Source: Rhodococcus tukisamuensis NBRC 100609
Lineage (GTDB): Bacteria; Actinomycetota; Actinomycetes; Mycobacteriales; Mycobacteriaceae
Reading direction: 5' to 3'
Assembly: GCF_001894985.1 (NCBI RefSeq)
Contig: NZ_BCXG01000004.1
Coordinates: 62,001-126,000 of the forward strand
DNA: 64,000 bases
This document shows, piece after piece, positions 3,805-6,425 of this stretch (positions are counted from its first letter, which is position 1; each line of letters starts with the position of its first letter). The notes under the pieces are model-generated. The model was given only the letters and a program-made list of their open reading frames with translations, was not told where the DNA came from and ran no database searches. The position numbers and the translations under genes are program-made.

Positions 3805-3852
3805 CGCTGTTCTCCCGGCCGATAGACGTTGTAGTTAACGCCACCTACCGTA

Positions 3853-3880
3853 CCGTAAGTTACGGCGCCGTAGGTTACGG
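3853..3880 (-). promoter_or_regulatory. tandem palindromic operator before desaturase copy 1
   Basis: Two 13-bp palindromes, CCGTAAGTTACGG at 3853-3865 and CCGTAGGTTACGG at 3868-3880, start 15 bases apart and end about 48 bases before the desaturase start. A third, degenerate match lies in the same phase at 3838-3850. The same motif with the same spacing precedes the reductase gene at 6398-6425. A TetR-type repressor binding as two adjacent dimers would fit, but the protein is not identified. Confidence 0.7.
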
Positions 3881-3936
3881 TTTCCGGGAGTGTGACGTGG
3901 CTAACACCGACCTGGCGCGGCCACGGTCGGGCGCGC

Positions 3937-5163
3937 CTACCGCCGACGCTCGCGCAGTTGGCGCAGGGCGGTCCGCAGCCCCACCCGACGACCCGTGACC
4001 TCGGCCCGGAGCCGGTCGAGCGCCGCCCTGGCGTCGTCGAACTTGCGCTCGGACGACGTCTCCGGGGCGTTGTCGGAGGTGGCCTTCAAGAACCGGTCCG
4101 GCAGCGCCAGCTTGTGGATGGTCCGCAGCGCCAACAGGTACTGCTTGGCGAATGATCCCGTCGTGTACGGCAGGTCGTACTTGTCACACAGCGCCTGCAC
4201 CCGCAGCGAGACCTCGCGCAGCCGGTTGCTGGGCAGGTCCGGGAACAGGTGGTGCTCGATCTGGTAGCTCAGGTTCCCGCTCATGAAGGCCAGCACCCGG
4301 CCCGACTTGAAGTTCGCGCTGCCGAGCATCTGCCGCAGGTACCACTCGGCCTTGGTCTCGTGGCGGTACTGCTCGACGGTGAACTTCTCGGCGCCGTCCG
4401 GGAAGTGCCCGCAGAAGATCACCGCGTAGGCCCACAGGTTCCGGGCGAAGTTCGCGGTCGCATTGGCGGCCAGCGTGTGCTTCCACGCCGGTCCCGTCAG
4501 CACGGGAAACAGCACGTAGTCCTTGACCACCTGCTTGGCGGCCTTCCCCCAGAACTCGCGGTTTATGTCGTCGACGTTGGCGCCGCCCCGCTTACGGTCC
4601 TCCTCCAGCGCGATCGACCAGTCGTGCATGGCGATGCCCCACTCGAAGGCGCTCGCGAGCACCACGTTCGCGACGGGCTGGAGCAGGTTGATCGGGCGCC
4701 ACGGCACGTCCCGGGTCATCCGGATGATCCCGAACTGCACGTCGTTGTCCATGCCGACGACGTTGGTGTACGTGTGGTGCGAGTAGTTGTGCGCGCGCTT
4801 CCACTGCGAGGACGACGCGGTCATGTCCCACTCCCAGGTCGTGGAGTGGATCTCCGGGTCGTTCATCCAGTCCCACTGGCCGTGCACGACGTTGTGACCG
4901 AGCTCCATGTTCTCGATGATCTTGGCCAGCGTCAACATCGTGGTGCCGACCGCCCAGACCGGACGCCGACGGCCGCCCAGGAGTGTCAACCGACCGCCGA
5001 ATTCGAGGAACCGCTGCAGCCGGATCACACCGCGGATGTACCTGGCGTCCCGCTCACCGCGCGAGTCCTCCACGTCACGGCGGATGGCGTCGAGCTCGTG
5101 ACCGAGAGCCTCGACGTCCGCCTCGGTGAGATGTGAAAATTCTTTGATGTCCGAGATGGCCAT
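3937..5163 (-). CDS. fatty acid (acyl-CoA) desaturase, DesA3 type, copy 2
   Basis: Second membrane di-iron desaturase, 408 residues, aligned with copy 1 without gaps through the catalytic core. The histidine boxes GHNVVH (90-94), HNYSHH (125-130) and QIEHH (301-305) are intact, so both copies should be active. It differs most around residues 180-205 and at the C-terminus, regions that may affect chain-length choice or partner contact. It follows the reductase gene on the same strand after about 100 bases and may be co-transcribed with it; I see no copy of the 13-bp operator directly before it. Confidence 0.92.
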   Translation of the reverse strand: MAISDIKEFSHLTEADVEALGHELDAIRRDVEDSRGERDARYIRGVIRLQRFLEFGGRLTLLGGRRRPVWAVGTTMLTLAKIIENMELGHNVVHGQWDWMNDPEIHSTTWEWDMTASSSQWKRAHNYSHHTYTNVVGMDNDVQFGIIRMTRDVPWRPINLLQPVANVVLASAFEWGIAMHDWSIALEEDRKRGGANVDDINREFWGKAAKQVVKDYVLFPVLTGPAWKHTLAANATANFARNLWAYAVIFCGHFPDGAEKFTVEQYRHETKAEWYLRQMLGSANFKSGRVLAFMSGNLSYQIEHHLFPDLPSNRLREVSLRVQALCDKYDLPYTTGSFAKQYLLALRTIHKLALPDRFLKATSDNAPETSSERKFDDARAALDRLRAEVTGRRVGLRTALRQLRERRR

Positions 5164-5264
5164 CGCCAGGACCCTCCGTAGAGCTAGATCAGATCACCGG
5201 CGGGGTCACCGCGGGCTCATGGTTACAACGATAGACGAATCGGACACCGACACCCCGGCCCAGT

Positions 5265-6380
5265 TCAGAGATCAAACGTGCAGTCGCCGGCGGCCGAGGA
5301 GATGCACGTCTGGACCCGCTCGCCCTCGCTGTGCTCACGGCCGGACCGCAGGTCCCGGATGTGACCCGAGACCAGCGGCACCACACAGGTCTGGCAGATG
5401 CCCATCCGGCAGCCGAACGGCATCTGCACGCCGAGCTGCTCACCGGCCTCGAGCACCGTGGTCGCGCCGTCGATCTCCACCGAACGCCCCGACTTGGCGA
5501 AGGTGACTGTGCCACCCTGGCCTGCGGTGTCCGCACGCGGGATGGTGAACCGCTCGGTGTGCAGCCGGTCCGCGATGCCCGCCTCGGTCCACACCCGCTC
5601 GACGTCGTCGAGCATCTGGGTCGGGCCGCACGCCCACGTCTGACGCTCGCGCCAGTCCGGGTACAGCGCGTCCAGGTCGGACAGCTGGAAGCGGCCGCCC
5701 GTGCGGGTGCACTGGACGTGTGAGACGAAACTCGGATGCGCCTCGTGCAGCTCCGCCATCTCGTCGCCGAACATGACGTCCTCGGCGGTCGGCGCGGAGT
5801 GCACGTGCACCACGTCCGGCAGCGCGCCCCGACGGACCATCGCGCGCAGCATCGCCATCACCGGGGTGATGCCGCTGCCCGCGGTGATGAACAGGATCTT
5901 CGCCGGCGGCGGCTCGGGCAGCGCGAAGTTGCCCTGCGGCGCCGCCAGCCGGACGACGGTGCCCGACGGGACGCCGTTGATCAGGTGGCTCGAGAGCTGC
6001 CCCTCCGGCATCGCCTTGACGGCGATGGAGATGCGCTTGTTCTCCCAGTTCGGCGGGGAGGTCAACGAGTACGACCGCCAGTGGAACCGGCCGTCGACCA
6101 GCAGACCGATCCCGATGTACTGGCCCGGCTGGTAGTCGAAGTCGAATCCCCAGCCCGGCTTGATCACCAGGGTCGCCGAATCCGAGGTCTCCTTGCGGAC
6201 CTCCACCACCCGGCCGCGCAGTTCCCGCGCCGACCAGAGCGGGTTGGCCAGGTGCAGGAAATCGTCGGGCAGCAACGGCGTCGTCACCCGAGTCACCGCC
6301 CCGCGCAACATGTTCAACGAAGGCCGGCGCGGCGCGGATACTTCCGCTGCCGGCCCCTCGAGCCACTTCCTCAGACCCAT
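5265..6380 (-). CDS. ferredoxin reductase with C-terminal 2Fe-2S domain, desaturase electron donor
   Basis: Single-chain flavin and iron-sulfur reductase that takes electrons from NAD(P)H and passes them to the acyl desaturases, like Rv3230c beside DesA3. Order of parts: an FAD-binding barrel with RSYSLTSPP, an NAD(P)-binding part with TAGSGITPVMAMLR, then a plant-type ferredoxin domain with CRMGICQTC and a last Cys near the end (QTCISS). I start at ATG 6380 because GGAAG lies just before it. The GTG at 6395 has no ribosome binding site and almost touches the operator at 6398. Confidence 0.92.
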   Translation of the reverse strand: MGLRKWLEGPAAEVSAPRRPSLNMLRGAVTRVTTPLLPDDFLHLANPLWSARELRGRVVEVRKETSDSATLVIKPGWGFDFDYQPGQYIGIGLLVDGRFHWRSYSLTSPPNWENKRISIAVKAMPEGQLSSHLINGVPSGTVVRLAAPQGNFALPEPPPAKILFITAGSGITPVMAMLRAMVRRGALPDVVHVHSAPTAEDVMFGDEMAELHEAHPSFVSHVQCTRTGGRFQLSDLDALYPDWRERQTWACGPTQMLDDVERVWTEAGIADRLHTERFTIPRADTAGQGGTVTFAKSGRSVEIDGATTVLEAGEQLGVQMPFGCRMGICQTCVVPLVSGHIRDLRSGREHSEGERVQTCISSAAGDCTFDL

Positions 6381-6397
6381 CAAACTTCCGTCCACTC

Positions 6398-6425
6398 GCC
6401 TAGGTTACGCAGCCGTAGGTTACCC
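6398..6425 (-). promoter_or_regulatory. tandem palindromic operator before the desaturase reductase
   Basis: Two related 13-mers, GCCTAGGTTACGC at 6398-6410 and CCGTAGGTTACCC at 6413-6425, start 15 bases apart, exactly as in the pair before desaturase copy 1. The edge is 17 bases from the chosen ATG, so a bound protein would cover the start of the transcript. The sites are less symmetrical than those at 3853-3880. Confidence 0.65.

Follow-up and report, generated by a model that had tools for sequence, protein, structure and literature searches.

Phased repeats at a desaturase and reductase locus

The 64-kb window examined here (G000:C4:62001-126000, Rhodococcus tukisamuensis) carries two desaturase genes and a reductase gene, with palindromic repeats that appear to form a shared operator located before the first desaturase and before the reductase. 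Among the matches listed, the nearest named relatives are R. spelaei and R. oryzae. The genes, the 13-base-pair (bp) palindromes reported in a first-pass annotation of this DNA, and the operator units as we now define them are as follows (aa, amino acids; ORF, open reading frame).

2551..3804, minus strand: desaturase 1, DesA3-type, PF00487, 417 aa
3937..5163, minus strand: desaturase 2, PF00487, 408 aa
5265..6395, minus strand: reductase, FAD/NAD/2Fe-2S, Rv3230c-type; the ORF opens with GTG at 6395, and an ATG lies at 6380
3838-3850: degenerate 13-mer ACGCCACCTACCG, in phase, before desaturase 1
3853-3865: 13-mer CCGTAAGTTACGG, before desaturase 1
3868-3880: 13-mer CCGTAGGTTACGG, before desaturase 1
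3853..3880: the 13-mer pair before desaturase 1, corresponding to the gaps that separate and flank the operator units
6398-6410: 13-mer GCCTAGGTTACGC, before the reductase
6413-6425: 13-mer CCGTAGGTTACCC, before the reductase
3843..3860: operator unit 1 of desaturase 1, ACCTACCGTACCGTAAGT, core 3846-3857 with one mismatch
3858..3875: operator unit 2 of desaturase 1, AGTTACGGCGCCGTAGGT, exact core 3861-3872, 15 bp from unit 1
6403..6420: reductase operator, GGTTACGCAGCCGTAGGT, exact core 6406-6417

All of the 13-bp palindromes, including the degenerate in-phase copy at 3838, were located where the first-pass annotation had placed them, and its palindromic pair at 15 bp also stands. However, the 13-mer is not the repeat unit. 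The best-conserved repeat is an inverted repeat, TACG-N4-CGTA, that is formed between two 13-mers and is shifted from them by half a site. The conserved block in 77 aligned pairs, AACCTACG-N4-CGTAACYTACG-N4-NGTA, comprises two such inverted repeats 15 bp apart, and the extended operator unit is ACCTACG-N4-CGTAGGT. In desaturase promoters, the outer-left, inner-right, inner-left and outer-right half-sites carry 93, 2, 1 and 3 mismatches, respectively, and the outer-right half itself belongs to the next unit. The corresponding numbers for the promoters of acyl-CoA desaturase (SCD) genes described below are 26, 0, 0 and 11. The reductase promoter has a single exact core, and the trhA promoter of the same genome carries one perfect 18-mer, ACCTACGGTACCGTAGGT (L181:1452), which would count as two poor sites if read as 13-mers. 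In 50 of the 77 desaturase promoters, 12 or 13 bp separate the end of the proximal 13-mer from the ATG. The operator array thus overlaps the region where translation starts and probably also the promoter.

The window contains just two exact cores, at 3861 and 6406. When up to three mismatches are allowed, single sites are only mildly enriched, with 29 in the window compared to a mean of 15.5 in shuffled sequence (standard deviation 4.4, largest 28), and the exceptional feature is the pairing rather than the single sites. We searched the whole genome (5,486,610 bases, 66 contigs) for CGTANNNTACG-N4-CGTANNNTACG pairs and found two places with at most one mismatch, versus none in a backwards control. 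At up to two mismatches there are four places in three promoters, which are those of desaturase 1, the reductase, and a PlsC-like acyltransferase (PF01553) on contig C2 whose promoter has three phased sites. The few pairs, rather than hundreds, agree with the small regulon that had been predicted. Matches at three mismatches (13 versus 10 in the control) are background and were excluded from use.

Conservation and breadth of the operator

The first-pass annotation had proposed comparing the upstream regions of orthologous genes, and the pair proves to be conserved there. The sample consists of the desaturase loci (723,175 bases) of the best 80 of 586 relatives found, representing Rhodococcus, Prescottella, Rhodococcoides, Nocardia, Gordonia, Williamsia, Skermania, Tomitella, Antrihabitans and Mycobacterium. 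Within the 200 bp upstream of the desaturase, 67, 77 and 79 of the 80 loci have a pair spaced by exactly 15 bp at 2, 3 and 4 mismatches, respectively, counted over 16 positions, and L107 is the single promoter without one at 4 mismatches. In ten shuffles, the count was 0-1 of 80 at either 2 or 3 mismatches and 0-3 at 4. The phasing is exact across many genera, and the neighbouring spacings are empty: in the 80 desaturase promoters there are no pairs at 11-14 or 16-17 bp with up to three mismatches, and none at 11-14 or 16-18 bp with two. Secondary peaks at spacings of 19, 20, 24, 25 and 30 bp (10, 30, 8, 25 and 13 of 80 at up to three mismatches) are read as half-site overlaps and third sites. 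When scored as cores with at most one mismatch each, two cores 15 bp apart are found in 78 of 80 desaturase promoters and 15 of 20 SCD promoters.

The claim that desaturase and reductase share an operator is likewise borne out. Of the 69 loci that include reductase upstream sequence, 67 have an exact core there (the misses are L092 and L115), a count that leaves out three loci cut off upstream and eight without a reductase match. The 80 loci hold 174 exact cores, 100 of which lie within 250 bp of the desaturase start, 71 before the reductase, and three in L051-L053. These last three are 3' of the reductase and, by position, ahead of desaturase 2.

Because the upstream gap of desaturase 2 in the window has no exact TACG-N4-CGTA core, this gene is probably transcribed together with the reductase. 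L051-L053 differ from the window in this respect, since their exact core stands where desaturase 2 would begin.

A regulon that ties desaturation to its electron supply had been predicted, and both parts are present, but the list is incomplete because the PlsC-like acyltransferase and trhA join it. Of 121 genomes of the family, 46 carry the strict pair, at 57 places in total, versus four matches in the backwards control. The nearest genes code for membrane desaturases (43), reductases (6), TrhA (4), a PlsC-like protein (1) and an acyl-ACP desaturase (1), with two pairs unassigned. The operator precedes trhA, a PAQR/HlyIII gene, in our genome and in four further genomes, and our trhA product scores 151.5 bits against the TrhA model (cut-off 80). 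The PlsC-like target is found in our genome alone and in no other of the 121. Among 298 genomes of the order, 17 carry the exact pair (backwards control, 3). In the 11 of these that fall outside the family, the pair precedes SCD-type desaturases (3), acyl-ACP desaturases (4) and reductase-desaturase operons (4), two of which have a further gene in front.

Two other placements were observed. In L135, from the small genome G101 where no desaturase match was found, an AccD-type carboxyltransferase gene (PF01039) has phased sites upstream (pair at 1501). In L163 (G116), a pair at 2493 with one mismatch is upstream of a small GNAT-type acetyltransferase gene (PF14542) and may be due to chance.

A separate feature of the window, at 2350-2463 on the plus strand, is an ORF of 37 aa whose ATG is closely preceded by GGAG, accompanied by a strong hairpin at about 2480-2521. 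Among the 80 loci, only L045 and L046 were seen to have similar peptides in a like position. By resemblance, the product may be a small cell-wall channel peptide.

A candidate TetR-family regulator between glmU and mfd

The regulator had been described as not next door, and the candidate is indeed encoded on contig C11, whereas the desaturase locus is on C4. In G154 and G129, the gene after SCD encodes a TetR protein and adjoins mfd or glmU. The counterpart in our genome is G000:C11:61650-62282 on the minus strand, which is 62% identical; the next match is FasR, at 31%. This gene sits between glmU and mfd (GlmU 775.6 bits, cut-off 611; Mfd 1042.6 bits, cut-off 800), and one or the other of these neighbours is present in 49 of 52 TetR stretches. 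Its product belongs to the TetR family, with a TetR_N helix-turn-helix (PF00440) at 54.5 bits against a cut-off of 24. Rv1019 of Mycobacterium tuberculosis has the same setting, in the gene order Rv1018c-Rv1019-Rv1020 with glmU and mfd on either side. By position, we therefore assign the C11 gene as the probable Rv1019 orthologue.

The orthologue is readily told apart from other TetR proteins. At E<=1e-40, 114 of the 121 family genomes have a single match to it and, one split orthologue aside, a gap from 203 to 128 bits sets it apart in 41 chosen genomes, 11 of which were selected for carrying the motif. It is present in 32 of the 41, among them every one of the 11 genomes outside the family that bear the motif. 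In the best 30 loci of these 32 genomes, an SCD gene lies upstream of the TetR gene in 20 (19 adjacent, and 1.3 kb away in G203). All 20 SCD promoters carry the pair at up to three mismatches, with spacings other than 15 bp giving 0-3, and 12 of these 20 loci come from genomes chosen without an exact pair. The operator is found in none of the 10 TetR loci that have no SCD gene (best 5-6 mismatches). The regulon could have its ancestral form in this SCD-TetR operon, which lies next to glmU or mfd.

Co-occurrence points the same way. Among family genomes with the desaturase, the pair is present in 17 of 20 that have the orthologue (by eye from positions; the strict exact-core count is 14 of 20) and in none of the three without it. 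Three genomes that lack the orthologue (G009, G039 and G088) also lack the desaturase.

Several observations weigh against the assignment. G016, G022 and G047 have the orthologue but no pair before the reductase or desaturase (3 of 20). By the strict exact-core count, the operator is missing in 6 of 20 genomes with the orthologue versus 3 of 3 without (p = 0.047), and two of those three belong to one genus. G019 has the operator but no orthologue was found in its genome, which is 66% complete. The promoter of the TetR gene, in the glmU-TetR gap, lacks the pair in 50 family loci (best 6-8 of 16 mismatches), which by sequence indicates that autoregulation is absent in these loci. In addition, Rv1019 has been reported to repress mfd-mazG (PMC9579286), which the operator leaves unexplained.

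Two other candidates were rejected. The TetR gene P0006, which is tail-to-tail with trhA in G020, has a best match of 32% in our genome and is MftR-like but below the cut-off. The MabR site, TTTTGT(N)9ACAAAA, is unlike the operator.

Proposed mechanism, alternatives and significance

We consider it highly probable that the repeats are the operator array of an Rv1019-type TetR repressor of membrane-lipid unsaturation. We computed the anatomy of the operator, its conservation, the gene neighbourhood, the co-occurrence and the nearest fold, and we infer binding by this protein in Rhodococcus, repression, the ligand and the arrangement of two dimers. The array would comprise two units with a 15-bp period that cover the desaturase start or lie just ahead of it, and one unit before the reductase. 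The TetR protein (C11:61650-62282) would block transcription of the genes for the reductase, the desaturases, the PlsC-like acyltransferase and TrhA, and would release the operator on binding long-chain acyl-CoA, such that desaturation, electron supply and product use rise together. That an Rv1019-type TetR reads this putative operator is very likely, and its action is in all probability repression. That acyl-CoA is its effector is a somewhat favoured guess. Since 15 bp corresponds to about 1.4 helical turns, two dimers, which the first-pass annotation supposed to bind cooperatively, may well sit some 15 bp apart on nearly opposite faces of the DNA, although we lean only modestly toward this arrangement.

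FasR, an acyl-CoA-responsive TetR of the same family, deserves attention as the protein that might read the operator instead, but we regard this as very unlikely. Among the matches listed, it is the closest solved relative of the candidate and its nearest solved fold, and a FasR orthologue (G000:C4:40803-41393, 383.5 bits, cut-off 330) is encoded on the same contig, about 25 kb from the desaturase locus. Moreover, the 25-bp FasR oligonucleotide contains TACCCGTACGTA, one mismatch from the core, so that cross-binding is possible, and this counts against our assignment. However, the extended unit differs from that oligonucleotide at 7 of 14 positions, and G012, G041 and G032 lack both the Rv1019-type orthologue and the operator yet keep FasR-like paralogues (107-124 bits). 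Where a TetR gene shares its locus with the operator and a desaturase gene, its product is of the Rv1019 type; the candidate in our genome scores 107.6 bits against the NCBIfam FasR equivalog model, below the cut-off of 330. FasR of M. tuberculosis is an acyl-CoA sensor, as the candidate would be, but activates fas-acpS and has another extended site and about 31% identity.

It is highly improbable that MadR or TrcR, other regulators of mycobacterial desaturases, is responsible. MadR controls desA1/desA2, and desA3 and Rv3230c reportedly belong to the ChIP-seq targets of TrcR in M. tuberculosis (PMC8872791 and PMC11895460). However, in a comparison of sites that covered MadR, its consensus, TCTGTGxxxxxxxGT, is unlike the operator, and desA3 is described as unchanged by madR deletion. 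An extremely improbable alternative is that no dedicated regulator exists and the repeats serve as a promoter or DNA-structure element. The conserved TAACTT within the array does fit a TANNNT -10 box, but the palindromic halves, the exact period in three desaturase families, and the loss together with one TetR gene speak against this.

The Rv1019-type assignment has precedent. A title listed among the references of PMC9861118 (doi 10.1111/febs.16647), which came to light after the gene-neighbourhood result, states that Rv1019 negatively regulates Rv3230c-Rv3229c in M. tuberculosis. This provides independent support for the regulator and is also prior art, with the same regulator by position, the same reductase-desaturase target and negative regulation. 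Thus, the suggestion in the first-pass annotation that the motif was new was overstated, and the link between regulator and target is already known in M. tuberculosis. As far as the title goes, it concerns one operon in one species, whereas here the operator is defined across many families and also precedes trhA, the PlsC-like gene, and acyl-ACP and SCD-type desaturases. Our additions are the operator, its breadth and the wider regulon. For the Rv1019 intergenic region, PMC4482099 gives a motif (1.9E-17). A literature search whose scope lay outside the primary Rv1019 papers found no description of the operator anatomy, breadth or extra targets, and an earlier description of the motif is possible.

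In Escherichia coli, the TetR protein FabR represses unsaturated fatty-acid genes and, in addition, has trhA, a PAQR/HlyIII gene, under its control (PMC9017321). The operator described here similarly precedes both unsaturated-lipid genes and trhA; however, FabR targets fabA and fabB, rather than oxygen-dependent desaturases. The candidate scores 27.8 bits against the NCBIfam FabR equivalog model (cut-off 151), and despite this sub-threshold score it may work like FabR. DesT of Pseudomonas aeruginosa is an acyl-CoA-sensing TetR repressor of a desaturase-reductase operon, a role like that proposed here. DesT is not among the 50 matches listed in the fold comparison, which excludes nothing.

It is likely that one TetR repressor governs a membrane-unsaturation regulon across the order Mycobacteriales through the 15-bp-periodic TACG-N4-CGTA operator, which would have become linked, in separate events, to three desaturase classes (DesA3-type, SCD-type and soluble acyl-ACP), the reductase, the PlsC-like acyltransferase and trhA. 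This system would be the actinobacterial counterpart of FabR. It would give a precise operator for the control of oleic-acid synthesis in Rhodococcus, Nocardia, Gordonia and their relatives, including oil-producing strains, and would place Rv1019-type regulators in membrane-lipid control rather than mainly in DNA repair. The findings also suggest that a TetR repressor of unsaturated-lipid genes is linked with TrhA in actinobacteria, as FabR is in E. coli, and this link is a clue to the role of bacterial PAQR proteins.
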